Shown: piece after piece, positions 1,911-12,928 of the stretch
Numbering within the stretch: the stretch's first letter is position 1
How the letters are laid out: every line of letters starts with the position of its first letter
Assembly: GCF_002723455.1 (NCBI RefSeq)
Contig: NZ_PDUS01000012.1
Coordinates: 60,125-124,124 of the forward strand
Length of the DNA stretch: 64,000 nucleotides
Source of the DNA: Pseudoalteromonas sp. 3D05
Lineage (GTDB): Bacteria > Pseudomonadota > Gammaproteobacteria > Enterobacterales > Alteromonadaceae
Direction of reading: 5' to 3'
The notes under the pieces: generated by a model
What the model was told of the DNA's origin: nothing
What the model saw: only the letters and a program-made list of their open reading frames with translations
The model's database searches: none
Program-made: the position numbers and the translations under genes

Positions 1911-2345
1911 ATGAACAATAAAATGAAAAAAAGTGTATTACAACATGGGTTTACACTCACCGAGTTATTAATAGTTGTTGCAATAATAGGTATTCTTTAT
2001 AGCGTAGCTTTACCTTCATATACAGAGCATATGGAGCGCAGTCGCCGCGCTGATATTCAGCAGGTAATGTTACAATATGGTGCAAGCCTAGAGCGAATAT
2101 ATTCACGTAACGGTGGTTACCCAAATGCATTTAATGCTGCCGTAAATACTGAATTCTATACTTTTTCATATACGCCATCAGATAGAGTCCCCGGTGCAGC
2201 TGCTGCCGATGATTTTCGTAGTCGAAAGTACACTTTAAAAGCGACTCCTAAAGCAGGCTCAGCTCAAGCGAATGACCTTTGTGGTGCCTTAACGTTAACT
2301 CATGATGGTTCACAGCTACCAAATTCTAATAGTTGTTGGGGTTAG
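1911..2345 (+). CDS. pilE: Type IV pilin-like protein, PilE/minor pilin family
   Basis: Prepilin of a type IV pilus system, to be cleaved by the prepilin peptidase and assembled through its N-terminal helix. The short leader MNNKMKKSVLQHG is followed by FTLTELLIVVAIIGILYSVALPSY, the class IVa signature with Glu5 of the mature protein. Two cysteines near the C-terminus (DLCGAL and NSCWG) can form the D-region disulfide. The ATG at 1911 is chosen over the in-frame TTG at 1908; GGAAG precedes it. At 144 residues it is the size of PilE-type minor pilins. In Pseudomonas pilE ends the fimU-pilVWXY1E operon; here it comes first. Confidence 0.88.
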   Translation: MNNKMKKSVLQHGFTLTELLIVVAIIGILYSVALPSYTEHMERSRRADIQQVMLQYGASLERIYSRNGGYPNAFNAAVNTEFYTFSYTPSDRVPGAAAADDFRSRKYTLKATPKAGSAQANDLCGALTLTHDGSQLPNSNSCWG

Positions 2346-2349
2346 CCAA

Positions 2350-2799
2350 ATGAACAAAGCCTCAGGTTTTACTCTTGTTGAGTTAATGGTGGTGGTTGGT
2401 ATCATCGCGATTATGGCTGTGCTTGCATTTCCCTCATTTAGCCAGCAAATAATGCAAGATCGTGTTGTAACAACCGCCAATCAGTTGAACAGTGTATACA
2501 AGTTTGCGCGCAGCGAAGCGGTAAAGCGCGATAGTAATGTTAAGCTTGTTGTGAGCGGAGATAAATGGCAAGTAAAGGCACCCGTTGATGGAGTCGAAAC
2601 CTTGTTGCGTGAGTTTGCTATTCAACATCAAGGTATTAATGTTTCATTAGTAGATAAAACGATTATGTCTACAGGTGAGGTTTCGTTAGCAAGTACCATT
2701 TTGGTTAAAGATGATAACGAAAAAACGACAGACTATTATCTTTGTGTTTTAAAAAGTGGTCAAAATTGGTTAGCTGAAAAATCCACTGGGTGCGCGTAA
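2350..2799 (+). CDS. GspH/FimT-family minor pseudopilin
   Basis: Minor prepilin of the FimT/FimU/GspH family. The leader MNKASG is followed by FTLVELMVVVGIIAIMAVLAFPSF, with the prepilin peptidase site G/F and Glu5. The remaining 120 residues resemble the GspH fold: a helix with NQLNSVYKFARSEAVKR, then beta strands and a C-terminal Cys pair region (YYLCVLKSG...STGCA). A more upstream start at 2302 would overlap the pilE-like gene and add residues without pilin character, so 2350 is chosen. The stop overlaps the next start (TAATG), indicating coupled translation. It likely belongs to the pilus-tip priming complex. Confidence 0.85.
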   Translation: MNKASGFTLVELMVVVGIIAIMAVLAFPSFSQQIMQDRVVTTANQLNSVYKFARSEAVKRDSNVKLVVSGDKWQVKAPVDGVETLLREFAIQHQGINVSLVDKTIMSTGEVSLASTILVKDDNEKTTDYYLCVLKSGQNWLAEKSTGCA

Positions 2800-3212
2800 T
2801 GAAATCGCAAAATGGTTTTTCATTACTTGAGGTAATGATATCGGTTGTGATTGCAGGTATTGCTTTATTAGGCCTTGCCTCTGCACAGCTAAAATCTTTA
2901 CAGTACGCGACCAATAGTTTTAATTACACTGTTTCTTTAATTCAAGCGCAAAATACCATAGAGCGACTATGGCCTCATATTTGTGAATTACAAACAACGA
3001 ACCCTGATCTATTTACGGATGTGGATTTTCGCGCTGCTCTTGAACCACAAATAGCCGACTACACGTTAACCTTACCAGCTGCTTTTAATGATGAAATGCA
3101 GGTTATTGTTAGCTGGAATGACGAACGTATTAAGCAAAACGATCCACTGGGTCTGGAAAATCAAATCACACTCAATGCCAGTTATCCTGATTTATCTGCA
3201 GGGTGTAGTTAA
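2799..3212 (+). CDS. pilV: Type IV pilus minor pilin PilV
   Basis: Minor prepilin with leader MKSQNG and the helix FSLLEVMISVVIAGIALLGLASAQLKSLQYA, whose LLxLASAQ end is typical of PilV. 137 residues. It starts inside the stop codon of the preceding gene and ends inside the start of the next, so the five pilin genes form one tightly coupled unit. The role is inferred from family and context: with the FimT-, PilW- and PilX-like proteins it primes pilus assembly. The GTG at 2790 is a poorer start because it would lengthen the leader without a better ribosome binding site. Confidence 0.85.
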   Translation: MKSQNGFSLLEVMISVVIAGIALLGLASAQLKSLQYATNSFNYTVSLIQAQNTIERLWPHICELQTTNPDLFTDVDFRAALEPQIADYTLTLPAAFNDEMQVIVSWNDERIKQNDPLGLENQITLNASYPDLSAGCS

Positions 3213-3739
3213 TGTTTTATTGCGGAGAAAAACAACGCGGTTATACATTGGTCGAGTTGATGGTAGCACTTGCAGCAGGGGCGTTTTTGCTCGGTGGTGT
3301 AAGTTTGGCATACTCTGCCATAAAAGGGACTGTGTTGGTTGGCAAGGAATTAGAAAACGCGCAAGAAGTTATACGCTATACCAGCAAGGTATTTACTCGC
3401 AGTATTAAGCAAACACCGGTTACACCTATAGTGAGTGCTGATGGTTCATCAATTACAATAACCCAGCCCGCAGGAGTTGTGACTTGCACAGGAAGTGTGG
3501 CAGCGGCGGATGTAAATGAAGTCTATAGCTTAGACGGTAATAACCTCATGTGTGCGCTCGGTGCATTGACCCCTGAGCGGTTATTAACCGGTTTAGCATC
3601 GCTAAATTTTAGTATCAACAATGAGCTAGTCACAATTAACGTTAAACCAGAGCAGTTACCAGCTCAATTTGGGGACTCCGTTGCTATAGAGCTAGCTGCA
3701 TCTAACGTTATTCTTGAAAAAGTATACAGTGGTGAATAA
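3212..3739 (+). CDS. pilW: Type IV pilus minor pilin PilW
   Basis: Prepilin with leader MFYCGEKQRG and helix YTLVELMVALAAGAFLLGGVSLAYSAIKG, the pattern of PilW/GspJ-like minor pilins, followed by a helix with ELENAQEVIRYTSKVFTRSIK. At 175 residues it is shorter than the PilW of Pseudomonas (about 270 residues). The start and stop each overlap the neighbouring genes by one or more bases. Assigned from the N-terminal signature and operon position; the C-terminal half has no motif I recognise. Confidence 0.82.
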   Translation: MFYCGEKQRGYTLVELMVALAAGAFLLGGVSLAYSAIKGTVLVGKELENAQEVIRYTSKVFTRSIKQTPVTPIVSADGSSITITQPAGVVTCTGSVAAADVNEVYSLDGNNLMCALGALTPERLLTGLASLNFSINNELVTINVKPEQLPAQFGDSVAIELAASNVILEKVYSGE

Positions 3740-5565
3740 TGAGTAAGAAACAGCATGGCTTTACATTAATAACGGTGCTTATTTTAACAAGTATGGCCAG
3801 CATTGTTGTACTTAATTCATTACGTGAAAACCTTGTGCAAGAACGTTTGACGGGTAACTTTCAAAAGAAGATTAATAGCCGCCTGTTAGCTGAAAAAGGG
3901 GTATTCGAAGAAGCGAAGTTATTAAAACAGGCACTGAACGATAATCAGGCGCTTGATGTAGATGGTTTAATTGCTGCAGCAGGAAATGCGACAGGGAGTG
4001 GTTTAATTGGCGATGATGCTATTTATAATGCGACATTAAGTAAAAATGCAGCAGGAGAAATTGAAATAGCTAGTCAGGGCCGGCGCTATAGCGGCGACGC
4101 GGTCAGTAACCTCGTTGCACGTTATAAAATGATTCCTGGTGCGCCTAAGTCTCCCTTTGAGCAAGCCATTGTTGGCTGTGAAGGGGTTCTTGTTAATGGT
4201 AGCGGTCGTATTGACAGCTACGATTCAGCGGACGGGCCATATAAAGAAGAAGATGCGGGTACAGATGCACGGGTAGGGACTATTCATCATGATTCAGATG
4301 TTTCGTTAAGTGGTGGCTCGCCTATTTGGGGCGATGTGATAGTAACGGGTAATGTAACTTTAAGTGGTAGTTCACCTGTAATGGGAGATATACATGCCAA
4401 CGGAAGTGTTACTATTAATGGCGGTACTGGCACCGGTGTGCCTGAAGGCTATCCAGCTGACACCCGCGTAGCAGGAGATATTTTATCAATGCAAAGCATT
4501 GATTTCACTGGCGGACGTGTTTTGGGGGTGTTAAGGGCTACAAAAGATTTAACAATCCGTAATAATGATGACGGTATTGTTGAGAATAGAGAAGCAAATG
4601 GCCTTGATATTATGTATGGCGGTAAAGGTAGCTTCCCCAGTGATTTAGGTGCGCACCAGTATCAAGATGGTAAACCATATTCGCATGAAGTATTTAAAAA
4701 AGTGCCAGATATACAACCTGTCCCTTCGGTTGACCCAAATAACCCAGACCCAAATCATGACTACACAGATCCACGTACTAACTGTGATCCGATTTTGGTT
4801 GTTCGTAACAATGAAAATTTAGCAGGCAGCAGTACACTTACGGATTTAAATGTTATCGAATTTTCAGCATTTAATTTGACCGCAAATCAGGGGACATTTA
4901 CCAAGTGGCCGAGTTGGAAAAAACCGATGGGGCAAAACATTACGCCTGTATCAAGAACCGTATTTGAGCAACCTAATCAACAAGTTTATGTCTTGGATAG
5001 CTTGACCGTTTCTGGCGGAAAACTGACTGTGCAAAGTGGTGATGTCACTTTATATATTAAAAACGACTTTAGGTATAATAATCATCCTAGTAATGGGTTT
5101 GAGATAGCCTCGGGTGCCACATTAACAATATATATTGAAGGACGCGTTATTATTGATGATGAAATTACAGCGCATGAGCCTATTTCGTCAGTTGGGCGTG
5201 CTGTATTTAGCATTTTTTCAAGTTACGAAACCCCAGACATGGATCCGCTGGTGTGTCATGGTGTGCCTTCAACAGGCAATAAAGTTGGCGTAGAGCTTTT
5301 ATCAAATGCATCTATGTATGCAGCGATTTATGCACCTAGAGCCCATATTCAAGTTAATTCAGATTCTGGTAATGACTTTAATGGCTCCCTGAGAGGTAAA
5401 ACGGTCTCAACATGCGGTAATGGTGGGATCCATTATGACAAACGTTTAAAAGATATTAGTGCTGGCGGCGGCGGTGCTACCGTACCTAAATTACAGTTTC
5501 TAGGTTGGTCATACAAAGCCCCCGAAACTATTGTTGAAGAAACAGAAGAAGAAACAACTCCTTAA
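3739..5565 (+). CDS. Large PilX-like pilus assembly protein
   Basis: The N-terminus MSKKQHG/FTLITVLILTSMASIVVLNSLRENLVQERLTGNFQ is that of a PilX-type minor pilin, which lacks Glu5 (Ile-Thr here) and carries the QERLTGN motif. Ordinary PilX proteins have about 170-200 residues; this one has 608. The extra part (about residues 140-590) is rich in short beta repeats of the type GDVIVTGNVTLSGSSPVMGD and resembles the polymer-forming beta-helical domains attached to some PilX or PulK-like proteins. The C-terminus is acidic (VEETEEETTP). No pilY1 follows, so the long C-terminal domain may replace the PilY1 adhesin at the tip; this is inference. Confidence 0.75.
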   Translation: MSKKQHGFTLITVLILTSMASIVVLNSLRENLVQERLTGNFQKKINSRLLAEKGVFEEAKLLKQALNDNQALDVDGLIAAAGNATGSGLIGDDAIYNATLSKNAAGEIEIASQGRRYSGDAVSNLVARYKMIPGAPKSPFEQAIVGCEGVLVNGSGRIDSYDSADGPYKEEDAGTDARVGTIHHDSDVSLSGGSPIWGDVIVTGNVTLSGSSPVMGDIHANGSVTINGGTGTGVPEGYPADTRVAGDILSMQSIDFTGGRVLGVLRATKDLTIRNNDDGIVENREANGLDIMYGGKGSFPSDLGAHQYQDGKPYSHEVFKKVPDIQPVPSVDPNNPDPNHDYTDPRTNCDPILVVRNNENLAGSSTLTDLNVIEFSAFNLTANQGTFTKWPSWKKPMGQNITPVSRTVFEQPNQQVYVLDSLTVSGGKLTVQSGDVTLYIKNDFRYNNHPSNGFEIASGATLTIYIEGRVIIDDEITAHEPISSVGRAVFSIFSSYETPDMDPLVCHGVPSTGNKVGVELLSNASMYAAIYAPRAHIQVNSDSGNDFNGSLRGKTVSTCGNGGIHYDKRLKDISAGGGGATVPKLQFLGWSYKAPETIVEETEEETTP

Positions 5566-7884: not shown

Positions 7885-9264
7885 ATGGCTAAACCAGATA
7901 AACAAGTCGACACCCTTAAAGTTCCTCCTCATTCCATTGAAGCAGAACAGTCTGTTCTAGGTGGCTTAATGCTTGATAACCAAGCCTTTGACCGTGTTGC
8001 TGAGCTGGTTGTTGCGCAAGATTTTTATACGCGTACTCATAAACTTATCTTTGAGGCTATGGTTGAGCTGGCTGAAGTGGGTGATCCGATCGACTTAATC
8101 ACGATTTCAGAGAGCTTAGAGAAAAAGAATTCATTGAGTAATATTGGTGGTTTTGCCTATTTAGCTGAAATCGCCAAAAATACACCCAGCGCGGCGAATA
8201 TAGACGCTTACGCGAATATTGTGCGTGAACGTGCGGTGGTTCGTGAAATGATCGGCGTGGCTAACGAAATTGCTGAAGCTGGTTTTAATCCTGAAGGGCG
8301 AACCAGCCATGATTTGCTCGACTTTGCAGAAAGCAAAGTATTCAAAATTGCTGAACAGCGGACAAAAAGCAGTGAAGGCCCGCAAAGTATTCACAATATC
8401 CTAGAGAAAACCGTTGATAAAATTGAAGAGCTTTACCAGTCACCGCAAGATGGTGTAACGGGTGTAGGCACTGGGTACGCTGATCTAGACAAAATGACAA
8501 CGGGTTTGCAGCCCTCTGATTTAATTATTGTGGCAGCGCGTCCATCAATGGGTAAAACCACGTTTGCGATGAACTTAGCTGAACATGCTGCAATGACACA
8601 AGATAAGCCTGTACTTATTTATTCATTAGAGATGCCATCTGAGCAAATCATGATGAGGATGCTGGCGTCTCTTGGCCGTATAAACCAAACCAAAGTACGT
8701 ACAGGCCAATTAGATGATGATGATTGGGCGCGCTTATCATCAACCATGGGCTTATTGATGGAAAAAGGTAAGATGTATGTAGATGATGCATCAGGTCTAA
8801 CACCGACAGATGTTCGCTCAAGAGCACGTCGTATTGCTCGAGATCATGGCGGGATCAGCATGATCATGGTCGATTACTTGCAGTTGATGCGAGTACCGAG
8901 CTTGTCAGATAATCGTACCCTAGAGATTGCAGAAATATCACGCTCACTTAAGTCATTGGCTAAAGAGCTAAAATGCCCCGTTGTAGCTCTTTCTCAGCTT
9001 AACCGTACTCTAGAGCAACGTGCTGATAAACGACCGATCAACTCGGATTTACGTGAATCAGGCTCTATCGAGCAGGATGCCGATTTAATCATGTTTATTT
9101 ATCGTGATGAGGTCTACAACGAAGACAGTACAGAAAAAGGCATCGCTGAGATCATTATCGGTAAACAGCGTAACGGTCCTATCGGTAAAGTACGTTTGAC
9201 CTTCCAAGGCCAGTTCTCGCGTTTTGATAATTACGCGGGTCCAGCAGTTGATGACGAGTATTAA
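7885..9264 (+). CDS. dnaB: Replicative DNA helicase DnaB
   Basis: Hexameric helicase that unwinds the chromosome 5' to 3' at the fork. The N-terminal DnaG-interaction domain (HSIEAEQSVLGGLMLDN, residues about 12-115) and the RecA-like domain are present. Walker A is ARPSMGKTT with Lys224, Walker B lies in IMVDYLQLM, and DLRESGSIEQDAD is intact. The length of 459 residues is typical and there is no intein. The stop codon of dnaB overlaps the start of alr by one base (TAATG), so the two are probably cotranscribed, as in E. coli. Confidence 0.98.
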   Translation: MAKPDKQVDTLKVPPHSIEAEQSVLGGLMLDNQAFDRVAELVVAQDFYTRTHKLIFEAMVELAEVGDPIDLITISESLEKKNSLSNIGGFAYLAEIAKNTPSAANIDAYANIVRERAVVREMIGVANEIAEAGFNPEGRTSHDLLDFAESKVFKIAEQRTKSSEGPQSIHNILEKTVDKIEELYQSPQDGVTGVGTGYADLDKMTTGLQPSDLIIVAARPSMGKTTFAMNLAEHAAMTQDKPVLIYSLEMPSEQIMMRMLASLGRINQTKVRTGQLDDDDWARLSSTMGLLMEKGKMYVDDASGLTPTDVRSRARRIARDHGGISMIMVDYLQLMRVPSLSDNRTLEIAEISRSLKSLAKELKCPVVALSQLNRTLEQRADKRPINSDLRESGSIEQDADLIMFIYRDEVYNEDSTEKGIAEIIIGKQRNGPIGKVRLTFQGQFSRFDNYAGPAVDDEY

Positions 9265-10343
9265 TGCGTTTAGCGGTAGCACAAATTAATTTATCGAACC
9301 TTGCGCACAATCTTGCGCAGGTAAAACGATTTGCCCCTAATAGCAAGGTGATGGCTGTTTTAAAAGCGAATGCTTATGGCCATGGCTTAGTTAAAATAGC
9401 GCAGCACTTAAATAATGCCGATGCATTTGCCGTAGCACGAATTGATGAGGCTCTTGCGCTTCGTGCAGGTGGGCTGACAAAACCTATTGTGCTTCTTGAA
9501 GGTGTTTTTCACCCCGAAGATTTAGCCATCCTGCTGGCGAACAATTTTCAAACCATTATCCATGATGAGAATCAATTAATTGCGCTTGAAGAGGCGCAAT
9601 TAGAGGCACCTATAAACTGTTGGCTGAAAATAAATACTGGTATGCACCGCTTAGGTATTGCGCCATCGCAATTAAATAATTTTTACCAGCGCTTAAGTGC
9701 GACTAAAAATGCTAACAGTACTATTAATTTAATGACGCACTTTTCGTGTGCAGATGATGTGAGCGATGCAAAAACAGCTGAGCAAATCGCGTTGTTCGAC
9801 TCCCTCGTCGCAGGTAAGCAACAAGCGCATTGCCTAGCCAATTCTGCGGGCATTATTGCATGGCCTGCGGGGCATGGGGATTGGGTGCGACCAGGTCTTA
9901 TGATGTATGGTGTATCGCCTATGTTGGGAGCTTTAGGCCATCAACATAATTTAAAACCAGTTATGCGCTTAACGACCCGAGTCATTGCTATTCGTGAGGT
10001 CGATGCAATGCAATGTGTTGGCTACGGTGGAAGTTGGCACTCTCAAAGCGCAACTAAGTTAGCAGTGGTTGCTATGGGCTATGGCGATGGTTATCCACGT
10101 CATGCGAAGCACGGTACGCCTGTTGTAATAGGTAATAAGCGCTATGGTATTGCCGGCAATGTTTCAATGGATATGATAAGCGTAGACATTGGTAACAACA
10201 GCGAAAACATTAAAGTGGGTGACGAGGTCGTAATGTGGGGCCCTGAATTACCAGTTGAAGAGATCGCGCAATGTGCAACCACGATCCCTTATGAATTACT
10301 ATGTAATATTACCCCACGAGTGAGCTACGAGTATCTCGATTAA
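9264..10343 (+). CDS. alr: Alanine racemase
   Basis: PLP-dependent enzyme that interconverts L- and D-alanine for peptidoglycan. The PLP lysine is in VLKANAYGHG (Lys34). The C-terminal domain contains the AMGYGDGYPR motif and GNVSMDMISVDI. The length of 359 residues is that of Alr. Translation is coupled to dnaB through a TAATG overlap. The dnaB-alr pair is the same as in E. coli, favouring the housekeeping role rather than a catabolic DadX. Confidence 0.97.
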   Translation: MRLAVAQINLSNLAHNLAQVKRFAPNSKVMAVLKANAYGHGLVKIAQHLNNADAFAVARIDEALALRAGGLTKPIVLLEGVFHPEDLAILLANNFQTIIHDENQLIALEEAQLEAPINCWLKINTGMHRLGIAPSQLNNFYQRLSATKNANSTINLMTHFSCADDVSDAKTAEQIALFDSLVAGKQQAHCLANSAGIIAWPAGHGDWVRPGLMMYGVSPMLGALGHQHNLKPVMRLTTRVIAIREVDAMQCVGYGGSWHSQSATKLAVVAMGYGDGYPRHAKHGTPVVIGNKRYGIAGNVSMDMISVDIGNNSENIKVGDEVVMWGPELPVEEIAQCATTIPYELLCNITPRVSYEYLD

Positions 10344-10345
10344 GG

Positions 10346-10585
10346 CTATTCTTTAATAAAGTAGATATCAGCGAAGCCCATTCGAGCAAACTCTTGATCG
10401 CGAAAATTACGTACCGCGGCAGATCCTTTCGATGTCATTTCAATTTGTCGTACCATATTTAAATAGTTGGTTAAATCGACACCTTCAGCCGCAGCTATCG
10501 CCTGATACATATCTTGGTATTTATCTTTAGCGAAGTTAATTTCACGAGGCTGATTTTTGAAGGTGTAGGTAATACGTCTGGCCAT
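10346..10585 (-). CDS. DUF2960 family protein
   Basis: Small conserved protein (79 residues) starting MARRITYTFKNQPREINFAKDKYQDMYQAIAAAEG. I recognise it as the DUF2960 family of gammaproteobacteria (present in Vibrio, Shewanella and relatives); the function is unknown. The N-terminus is basic and strand-like, the rest helical, with no membrane segment or signal. It converges on alr with two bases between the stops. Confidence 0.8.
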   Translation of the reverse strand: MARRITYTFKNQPREINFAKDKYQDMYQAIAAAEGVDLTNYLNMVRQIEMTSKGSAAVRNFRDQEFARMGFADIYFIKE

Positions 10586-10699
10586 GGGATACTCATAATT
10601 AAAACTAATAATGCTAATTTTACACCTTCTTCGCCGTCGCCTCTACCATTGAATGACTTGTAAGCAGTAGCGGGTTACAATAAGGTAATTATTTTAATA

Positions 10700-10966
10700 A
10701 TGAGTGCGTTAGTAATGAAATTATCTGTTGAGATCAGTAAATACCCACTACACCAAGACTATATCCCATTTATTAAAGGATTTATTGATCGTTTAAATAC
10801 CTACGATGATTTAAAAGTAATAACAAATACGCTGTCTACGCAAATATTTGGCGACTATGATTTGGTCATGTCTGTTCTTAATACTGAAATTAAGCGCTCG
10901 TATGAAGAGTTTGGTAAAGCCATTTTTGTGTGTAAGTTTCTATCTGGTGATCTTTCGCCTGAATAA
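10700..10966 (+). CDS. YkoF-like thiamine-binding domain protein
   Basis: An 88-residue protein: MKLSVEISKYPLHQDYIPFIKGFIDRLN...KVITNTLSTQIFGDYDLVMSVLNTEIKRSYEEFGKAIFVCKFLSGDL. The alpha/beta pattern with an odd-length ferredoxin-like repeat and the motif STQIFGDYD...VMSVLNTEI is that of the YkoF/MTH1187 family. B. subtilis YkoF has two such domains and binds thiamine; here only one is present. ATG 10715 is an alternative start. It is followed after 12 bases by a PnuC-type transporter and a kinase, so it probably serves vitamin salvage. No TPP riboswitch is visible in the short upstream region. Confidence 0.7.
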   Translation: MSALVMKLSVEISKYPLHQDYIPFIKGFIDRLNTYDDLKVITNTLSTQIFGDYDLVMSVLNTEIKRSYEEFGKAIFVCKFLSGDLSPE

Positions 10967-10978
10967 TGTGAGCCAATA

Positions 10979-11602
10979 ATGGACTTTATTACGCAAACTC
11001 TTGCAGGGTTTACTGCAATGTCGCACTGGGAATATATTGCAGTCGCTTTGTCTATGGCCTATCTATTATTGGCTATAAAAGAAAATCTATGGTGCTGGCC
11101 GGCAGCATTCTTTAGCACGCTAATTTATACCATAATGTACTGGAATGGTGCTTTGTTAATGGAGTCATTACTGCATTTTTATTATATGTACATGGCTGTT
11201 TATGGTTGGATGGTATGGCGAAAGGGGGGGGCAAATAAACAAGAGCTGGCCATTACCTCATGGGGTATTAATCATCATATAGCTATCATTATAGGTACTT
11301 CGTTAGTTGCAACCGTACTAGGTTACATAATGACTAATTATACTCATGCAGATTTCGCGTATCTAGATAGTTTTACAACCTGTTTTGCTGTGGTGACCAC
11401 GTATTTAGTGGCTAAAAAGGTGCTTGAAAATTGGCTTTATTGGATAGTTATAGATGCCGCATCAATGTATTTATACTATGAAAAAGGCTATTACCCAACG
11501 CTCGCGTTATTTGTATTCTATACGCTTATGGCTGCATGGGGGTTTAAAACTTGGTACGAAGAGTACGAACAAGATCAAGCTAAACCTTTAGCACAATTGT
11601 AA
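10979..11602 (+). CDS. PnuC-family vitamin transporter, probably PnuT (thiamine)
   Basis: Integral membrane protein of 207 residues with about seven hydrophobic segments and the PnuC signatures LLAIKENLWCWPAAFFSTLIYTIMYW and YGWMVWRKGG, plus a C-terminal WLYWIVIDAASMYLYYEKGYY. PnuC transports nicotinamide riboside and the close relative PnuT transports thiamine by facilitated diffusion coupled to intracellular phosphorylation. The YkoF-like gene upstream and the overlapping kinase downstream favour thiamine, but the substrate cannot be settled by sequence inspection. The stop overlaps the kinase start. Confidence 0.85.
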   Translation: MDFITQTLAGFTAMSHWEYIAVALSMAYLLLAIKENLWCWPAAFFSTLIYTIMYWNGALLMESLLHFYYMYMAVYGWMVWRKGGANKQELAITSWGINHHIAIIIGTSLVATVLGYIMTNYTHADFAYLDSFTTCFAVVTTYLVAKKVLENWLYWIVIDAASMYLYYEKGYYPTLALFVFYTLMAAWGFKTWYEEYEQDQAKPLAQL

Positions 11603-12402
11603 TGATGAGTTTTGATAAAATTAGTGCAATATTTAGTGCTTTTAATTCTCAGTTAGCAATTACTCATACTGAACGCTTACATAGTGGCTTAAGCAACGAT
11701 AATTTTCTTGTTCGCACATCAAACCATGGTTATTTACTTAAGTGCTATCGTGAACACTGGCCTGTAGTGGGTTTAGCAGCTCAAAAAAAATTTGCTGCGC
11801 TGAGCGTATGTTCAACGCCTTTATGGACTGATCAGGCACAAAAAATAGCGATATTCGAATACATAGAGGGTACAACTGCTCAAAGTGAATTGAATCATCA
11901 GCTAATTAGTAAGCTAGTGCAGCTTCATCAGCACTCAGTGTTGACTGAACCCATGGATATTAAATACGAACTTGATTATTACCAAAGTACAACACTGTAT
12001 GAATACTATCAGGGGGTAATCGAGCACGCATTAGCGAGAATATATACTTTTAAAAAGGATCTTGGTTTTTGCCATAATGACTTGGTCAAAGAAAATATTA
12101 TAGAAAATGACACGGGTGTGTATTTAATTGATTTTGAATACGCCAAAAGTAATGACGTGTACTTTGATCTGGCAGCATTGGCTGTGAGCTTTAAATTAAA
12201 TCAAAAACAAAAAATTGACTTACTCAATGTTTATCAAAAAAAACGTTCACATAGCGTTGAATTTCATCCCTCTGTGGACAAGCTAATATGCTATGAAGTC
12301 GTTTTTTTAGTGTTGTGTATATGTTGGTACAGCGCACGCAATGTTGATGATAAAGTAACGACTTTACGTGCGCAATTGGATGACTTAATAAGTAAAATGT
12401 AA
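11602..12402 (+). CDS. Aminoglycoside phosphotransferase-fold kinase, probable thiamine kinase
   Basis: Small-molecule kinase of the APH/choline kinase fold, 266 residues. The catalytic loop is GFCHNDLVKENI (HxDxxxxN variant), followed by YLIDFEYAKSNDVYFDLA (DFE magnesium motif). The N-lobe has LHSGLSNDNFLV and a Lys in YLLKCYRE. E. coli ThiK has this fold. The gene begins within the stop of the PnuC-type transporter, so trapping of the imported vitamin by phosphorylation is the simplest reading. Choline or another alcohol is the alternative substrate. Two tandem ATGs (11602, 11605) are equivalent starts. Confidence 0.72.
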   Translation: MMSFDKISAIFSAFNSQLAITHTERLHSGLSNDNFLVRTSNHGYLLKCYREHWPVVGLAAQKKFAALSVCSTPLWTDQAQKIAIFEYIEGTTAQSELNHQLISKLVQLHQHSVLTEPMDIKYELDYYQSTTLYEYYQGVIEHALARIYTFKKDLGFCHNDLVKENIIENDTGVYLIDFEYAKSNDVYFDLAALAVSFKLNQKQKIDLLNVYQKKRSHSVEFHPSVDKLICYEVVFLVLCICWYSARNVDDKVTTLRAQLDDLISKM

Positions 12403-12421
12403 GTGCCGTCTTTGCTGTGAA

Positions 12422-12604
12422 TTAAAGGCCACCAAAGCGAGCAGCTAACTCTTTGTATTTGGCAACTTCTTCAGCATCAAACTGTGGCTCTCCATTGGCA
12501 TCTTCAGACTTTGCGATTAATAGACTCTCTCTGGCTAAGCGTTTAACGCGCTCAACTTTAACCCCTAAAAACTCGGCGACTTGTTCTGTCGACATTAAAC
12601 TCAT
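12422..12604 (-). CDS. Small MerR/excisionase-fold DNA-binding protein
   Basis: A 60-residue protein beginning MSLMSTEQVAEFLGVKVERVKRLARESLL, a winged-helix HTH of the kind in excisionases and MerR N-termini, followed by a short acidic stretch (FDAEEVAKYKELA). There is no effector domain. The reverse-strand Shine-Dalgarno AGGAAG precedes the start. It is not next to an integrase. It could be a free-standing regulator or a relic of a mobile element near the downstream tRNA gene. Confidence 0.65.
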   Translation of the reverse strand: MSLMSTEQVAEFLGVKVERVKRLARESLLIAKSEDANGEPQFDAEEVAKYKELAARFGGL

Positions 12605-12853
12605 AACTCTACTTCCTCGTGGTTAACTATTTCGAAAAGCGGTTTTGAACCGTACAGATGTTACAAAATAGTTATTAATTTTTATCAAGTATAATTTAAT
12701 AGCTGTTTTTTGTCTTCTTGTGAAGTAAATTATTATAATTAGTGTATTAAATGAGCATATAAGCAACAGATGCTAGCATTTAGCCCAAGATGTCTTTATT
12801 ATTGCCCGTGCTAAAGCATCGATATCGCGAGTCGGTGTGGCGGCAACAAATGT

Positions 12854-12928
12854 GCTCTCGTGGTGAAATGGATATCACGTGGCTCTCCGGAAGCTAAGTT
12901 GCAGGTTCGATTCCTGCCGAGAGCGCCA
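12854..12928 (+). tRNA. tRNA-Arg (anticodon CCG)
   Basis: Complete cloverleaf. Acceptor GCTCTCG (12854-12860) pairs with CGAGAGC (12918-12924), then discriminator G and an encoded CCA (12926-12928). The anticodon stem TGGCT/AGCTA encloses CTCCGGA, with anticodon CCG at 12887-12889. The T arm is GCAGG-TTCGATT-CCTGC. It reads CGG arginine codons. It stands alone, with no other tRNA nearby. Confidence 0.95.

Follow-up and report, generated by a model that had tools for sequence, protein, structure and literature searches.

A YkoF-like, PnuT and kinase gene set of Pseudoalteromonas as a probable thiamine salvage system without TPP riboswitch control

Introduction

The closest described systems for thiamine salvage come from Bacteroides and from Gammaproteobacteria. 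In Bacteroides, the genes OMthi, pnuT and tnr3 are found in TPP-riboswitch operons, and the loss of pnuT or OMthi in a biosynthesis-minus background leads to a higher need for thiamine, according to excerpts of PMC5613172. Going by the descriptions in these excerpts, the Bacteroides system can be likened to the one studied here: there is likewise an outer-membrane TonB receptor, a PnuT transporter and a thiamine-phosphorylating enzyme, the latter being Tnr3, compared to an APH-fold kinase in our locus. The same excerpts of PMC5613172 describe a split arrangement in B. thetaiotaomicron, too; however, the split operons of Bacteroides mostly keep or duplicate the riboswitch, whereas the one described here does not.

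In Shewanella and other Gammaproteobacteria (e.g., Shewanella sp. ANA-3, locus L220), operons carry ykoF, pnuT and a kinase gene in the same order as in the locus studied here, and the encoded proteins are homologous. These operons have a TPP riboswitch and a TonB-receptor gene in front, both of which are absent from our locus. The PnuT of Shewanella woodyi is reportedly a thiamine facilitator of the same gammaproteobacterial kind as our transporter. A TPP riboswitch is listed before the TonB receptor SO2715 of S. oneidensis in a portion of PMC2659441; a literature search joining the TPP riboswitch with Omr1 found no paper.

Two proteins of E. coli serve as further points of comparison: PnuC, which belongs to the same PF04973 family as our transporter and whose gene adjoins nadA, and ThiK (YcfN), an APH-type kinase like ours. 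Bacillus subtilis YkoF has the YkoEDC transporter as its partner, whereas the partner of the small protein studied here is PnuT. No paper joining YkoF with PnuT was found in a literature search, the PnuT side of which was limited to the spelling "thiamine" and did not include "thiamin"; in the excerpts consulted, PMC9026889 mentions YkoF and PnuT, each apart from the other.

Here, we analyzed a window, i.e., a stretch of 64,000 nt of Pseudoalteromonas sp. 3D05, for which an original prediction had proposed that thiamine is taken up by metabolic trapping and that riboswitch control is lacking. The gene context of relatives makes this the best-supported reading: the three genes very probably make up one half of a thiamine (vitamin B1) salvage system, the one at the inner membrane and in the cytoplasm, and uptake would escape TPP riboswitch control. 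The salvage system as such is known; our locus represents a variant of it that is specific to its lineage.

Results

ORF calling over the window placed three genes on the forward strand, at 10700-10966, 10979-11602 and 11602-12402. The gap between the first two is 12 bases, and the start of the third overlaps the stop of the second by one base. The start of the first gene is more likely to be its second ATG, at 10715, since the aligned relatives mostly begin with MKLSVEIS. The genes thus code for a YkoF-like/Thiamine_BP-like single-domain protein (10715..10966, +; 83 aa from the ATG at 10715, 88 aa from 10700), a PnuT-type transporter of the PnuC family (10979..11602, +; 207 aa) and an APH-fold small-molecule kinase, a probable thiamine kinase (11602..12402, +; 266 aa). 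Upstream there is a divergent DUF2960 gene (10346-10585, -), followed by alr; downstream of the kinase gene there is a tRNA (12854-12925), followed by a Rof-family gene. The original prediction of three coupled genes is therefore borne out by the ORFs, together with matches to PF04973 and PF01636 and the fold match described below.

For comparison with related genomes, we used a sample of 197 genomes from the order, 56 of which have a YkoF-like protein; the loci of 40 of them were fetched, our own included. The order ykoF-pnuT-kinase is found in 33 of these 40 loci and ykoF-pnuT in 38. It should be noted that kinases were recognized in this count by phmmer with the window kinase, a threshold that misses distant kinases (e.g., a 296-residue ORF in L069). 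With this order in 33/40 loci and the transporter present in 60/60 genomes of Pseudoalteromonas, the three-gene arrangement is not due to chance.

The leader (10586..10714, +) separates ykoF from the divergent DUF2960 gene and measures 129 bases from the DUF2960 start to 10715. As claimed originally, no TPP riboswitch is visible at the locus: RF00059 had no match in the window at the gathering level and none at E<=10 in 9200-12900, and at E<=10 the leader had no Rfam match better than expected by chance. We also built a TPP riboswitch model (R1) from 20 sequences of relatives, the thiC riboswitch of our own genome among them; it found no riboswitch in our locus. R1 recovered the training member from our own genome as well as the riboswitches of five Pseudoalteromonas genomes outside the training set (G201, G212, G198, G213 and G230). 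A degenerate riboswitch in the leader was also considered and was rejected, as both the Rfam search at E<=10 and R1 were without a match.

A consensus scan of the leader produced a weak candidate promoter of the sigma-70 type (10653..10681, +; ATGACT-17-TACAAT); the number of scan matches is near the shuffled mean, and of 15 leaders compared, several have similar letters while others do not. It is possible, though doubtful, that thiamine is taken up but another regulator has replaced the TPP riboswitch, so that expression still follows thiamine. This alternative concerns control only and overlaps with the preferred explanation. It draws on short stretches that are common to the leaders of window-like loci; however, they resemble a promoter, coding sequence of the divergent DUF2960 gene makes up much of the alignment, and the Rfam search of the leader provided no candidate above chance.

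The riboswitch is commonly present in relatives. Among the 39 loci of the order sample other than our own, 27 have a TPP riboswitch at the Rfam gathering score approximately 2 kb upstream, and all 27 riboswitches precede a receptor gene some 700 codons long. Our own receptor and the four receptors checked from these riboswitch loci have TonB plug and barrel domains. The other 12 loci are without a riboswitch at the threshold used, and one of them (L061) gains one with R1. We also examined 42 loci from named genomes outside Pseudoalteromonas, in all of which pnuT adjoins the kinase gene; the YkoF-like gene was found in 35 (one by eye) and the receptor in 35. R1 detected a TPP riboswitch upstream on the same strand in 33 of the 42 loci and none in the other nine; 32 of these riboswitches stand before the receptor gene, and one (L209) is directly before pnuT. 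Psychrosphaera (two of three loci) and Algicola (one of one), which belong to the same NCBI family as Pseudoalteromonas, have kept the arrangement riboswitch-receptor-ykoF-pnuT-kinase.

Some loci deviate from this arrangement. Six loci of genus g26 (L034-L036 and L038-L040) have kept receptor-ykoF-pnuT-kinase, and the TPP riboswitch was not found there, a second possible loss. In Shewanella sp. HN-41 (L221), the receptor gene appears as two separate ORFs, 2327-3745 and 3747-4517. At the edge of the Algicola sagamiensis locus (L218), an additional TPP riboswitch match lies on the opposite strand (633-743, -).

In our own genome, there is a single TPP riboswitch match, located on another contig before an operon of thiC, a FAD oxidoreductase gene (thiO-like), thiG, thiDE and thiF. 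A genome search with the receptor of a relative produced a single strong match (602 bits, 46% identity; the next best has 62 bits), and this receptor gene adjoins the thiC operon and is transcribed away from it (L141 7655-9799, -). In this genome, a riboswitch was found before neither the receptor gene nor pnuT, and these two genes lie apart. The genome also encodes ThiL (344.7 bits).

This arrangement is typical of the genus. In 60 genomes of Pseudoalteromonas, pnuT and a receptor homologue are each present in 60/60, and each genome has a single TPP riboswitch match at E<=0.001 (above the gathering score in 59) in a search that used stricter filters, which lose weak matches. In 52 genomes, a distance of 1.0-1.3 kb separates the riboswitch from the receptor gene, which is encoded on the other strand, and pnuT is found at another place; in five, receptor and pnuT adjoin each other within 10 kb of the riboswitch (G213, G230, G199, G198 and G212); and in three, riboswitch, receptor and pnuT are all far apart. 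For this count, the lower-scoring pnuT copy was used in five two-copy genomes (it is linked to ykoF and kinase in four of them, and G238 was assumed to be alike), and G227 entered with just the receptor fragment that shares a contig with the riboswitch. According to gene content, the thi biosynthesis operon of G213 and G230 runs on into receptor-ykoF-pnuT-kinase behind one riboswitch; G199 was placed behind the riboswitch in the thi operon by spacing alone, and in G198 and G212, receptor and pnuT are upstream of the riboswitch.

The 60 genomes contain 65 pnuT matches, and 40 stretches around them were fetched in addition to our own locus. R1 detected no riboswitch in our locus and these 40 stretches, except for the thiC riboswitches of G212 and G198. 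The 36 main loci among the 40 stretches all have ykoF and the kinase gene (in L132, ykoF was found by eye and has a TTG start). Apparently, the uptake set was split in Pseudoalteromonas and lost its riboswitch, while synthesis kept one. Loss from the pnuT locus in this genus is the simplest reading, and the missing riboswitch of our locus looks like a lineage-specific loss.

The small protein alone matched zero Pfam or NCBIfam families at E<=1, and a single-sequence PDB search resulted in weak matches (best E 0.091), so that a profile was needed. In the PDB, a profile of 50 relatives matched B. subtilis YkoF (E 7.1e-7, for the most part over residues 7-56) and also MJ1052 (E 1.9e-5). Of the 50 relatives, 47 match Thiamine_BP and 34 match Ykof at E<=1; the window protein itself is not among the Thiamine_BP matches. 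An AlphaFold2 model (mean pLDDT 92.1, pTM 0.81) aligned best with TM0486 (1vk8; Z 12.5, rmsd 1.6 A over 83 residues), followed by 1lxj (Z 11.9), 2ibo (Z 11.9) and 2eky (Z 11.2), and Foldseek matched the model to MJ1052 (E 6e-6). YkoF itself has Z 7.8, a value no higher than that of many unrelated ferredoxin-like folds, and the single-domain relatives alone stand out.

The likeness to YkoF and to the Thiamine_BP/DUF77 proteins TM0486, MJ1052 and MTH1187 thus consists of a profile match and the fold. YkoF proper has two tandem ferredoxin-like domains (two profile matches per chain), whereas the window protein, with 83-88 residues, is one domain; because of this single domain, it is not YkoF proper. 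By the fold of its model, the small protein belongs to the Thiamine_BP/YkoF superfamily, and thiamine binding is putative. The titles of references cited in excerpts of PMC6393860 and PMC9026889 describe TM0486 as a thiamin-binding protein and YkoF as thiamin/HMP-binding, respectively. It should be noted that ORF calling was trimmed to ATG, and TTG-started ykoF genes in L132 and L190 were missed at first. Two YkoF-like genes, in L063 and L066, are without pnuT nearby; the former comes after genes of what, by a guess from the reading frames, would be acyl or carboxylic acid metabolism, and the latter is near a cobalamin riboswitch.

The kinase has the APH fold (PF01636, E 1.5e-14). Its HxDx4N and DxE motifs are kept; in 22 aligned sequences, D160, D177 and E179 are invariant, and H158 and N165 are nearly so. 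The best NCBIfam model is thiamine kinase TIGR02721, the family of E. coli ThiK, with 72.1 bits versus an equivalog cut-off of 299.45, i.e., 227 bits under it; because of this shortfall, the protein is not filed as ThiK. The original prediction had set a kinase using choline against its own reading. By sequence alone, a choline-type kinase would be possible, and the best PDB match is indeed a choline kinase; conversely, all 22 aligned kinases from the window and related loci match the ThiK model at E<=0.001, and the operons of relatives are linked to the TPP riboswitch. The protein is probably a thiamine kinase.

These data also bear on a related possibility, namely that the system takes up a precursor or breakdown product of thiamine (HMP or the thiazole alcohol), which the kinase phosphorylates. 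Uptake of a precursor would likewise fall under a TPP riboswitch, and HMP appears in the title cited for YkoF in the excerpt of PMC9026889. However, the kinase resembles thiamine kinase and not HMP or HET kinases, our genome makes the precursors by itself (thiC, thiG, thiDE), and a PnuT of another source is reported to move thiamine in the excerpts of PMC5613172. Precursor uptake is thus improbable.

The transporter matches PF04973 with 163.3 bits versus a cut-off of 27.3 (E 7e-48) and is the sole match of this family in the 4.47 Mb genome; a single-sequence PDB search with it found no match, and here, too, a profile was needed. It is over the cut-off of the NCBIfam model for nicotinamide riboside PnuC (TIGR01528; 60.9 versus 42.45 bits). 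This cut-off does not discriminate, because seven of seven riboswitch- or thi-operon-linked relatives scanned singly pass it, too (52.7-87.3 bits), and 40/40 aligned transporter relatives match the model; E. coli PnuC scores 248.8 bits. Since the cut-off also passes transporters from a thiamine context, the automatic label is unreliable here.

The original prediction had called for a phylogeny of the PnuC homologue. In the first tree (82 rows), the window transporter falls within a set of 60 rows that are mostly riboswitch-, receptor- or YkoF-linked, apart from 11 rows of the E. coli type; E. coli PnuC, which has 24% identity to the window transporter over residues 146-231, is in a separate group in both trees. 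The second tree (75 rows) leaves out seven of the 82 rows (four long branches and three fragments) and has the same split between the set of the window transporter and E. coli-type PnuC. Its group T was defined partly by similarity to the window protein, and its clustering is no independent evidence. Both best trees thus place the protein with TPP-riboswitch-linked PnuT; however, AU tests did not reject a grouping with E. coli-type PnuC, forced either for the window protein (p 0.147, with a log-likelihood lower by 22) or for its genus group (p 0.187, lower by 19). As neither forced grouping is rejected, the substrate was rested on gene context and not on the tree. Salvage of nicotinamide riboside, imported by PnuC and phosphorylated by the APH-fold kinase, would agree with the PnuC family, the TIGR01528 score and the AU tests; however, it is unlikely when judged on context, and we give it very little credence, since a TPP riboswitch and a TonB receptor precede the orthologous set in most of the relatives' loci examined, the TIGR01528 cut-off passes riboswitch-linked relatives, the best trees separate the two groups, and NadR, the one nicotinamide riboside kinase searched for, had no match in our genome at E<=0.001.

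Discussion

In the proposed thiamine salvage system, the TonB-dependent receptor encoded beside thiC would bring thiamine across the outer membrane, and its passage through the inner membrane would be by facilitated diffusion via PnuT. The YkoF-like protein may bind thiamine in the cytoplasm, a guess from its fold and its constant company. The APH-fold kinase would convert thiamine to thiamine phosphate, a form expected to be unable to leave the cell, and ThiL would make the coenzyme TPP. The steps of the receptor, PnuT and ThiL are proposed because known members of these families act so. Synthesis led by thiC can be shut off by TPP through the riboswitch, whereas uptake would not be: in our genome and in the majority of the sampled genus, the uptake genes are without a riboswitch and lie apart from the receptor gene, and for this reason uptake should not follow TPP in this manner.

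By analogy with Bacteroides, losing the riboswitch may have a smaller effect than it would appear, because riboswitch-adjacent pnuT and OMthi show minimal expression change with thiamine there, as described in excerpts of PMC5613172. We propose tentatively, with the balance slightly against it, that in most of this marine genus, synthesis is under the TPP riboswitch whereas uptake has escaped it, resulting in constant scavenging of vitamin B1 with synthesis saved for scarcity, and that PnuT has a permanent third partner in the single-domain YkoF-like protein, which hands thiamine to the kinase or buffers it.

How marine microbes exchange vitamin B1 is an ecological question that is still open. 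A genus with uptake seemingly uncoupled from the TPP riboswitch, and synthesis not, differs from the usual model in which the two are switched jointly. Annotation based on riboswitches would miss the uptake genes of Pseudoalteromonas. The comparison also connects PnuT with a YkoF-like protein that is poorly named.

Several observations concern variation of the gene set. Five of the 60 Pseudoalteromonas genomes (G220, G235, G231, G246 and G238) have a second PnuT homologue, which is without ykoF or kinase in the four fetched loci (L133, L135, L137 and L139, of the first four genomes) and forms its own branch in the tree. The kinase changes faster than PnuT, with 19-36% versus 32-73% identity outside the closest clade of the window, as calculated from different sets of rows. 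In seven Campylobacterota loci (L194, L195, L196, L205, L206, L209 and L224), some of them on short contigs, pnuT adjoins the kinase gene, and neither ykoF nor the receptor was found. The PnuT of these Campylobacterota falls inside the gammaproteobacterial set, a position in the tree that suggests gene transfer.
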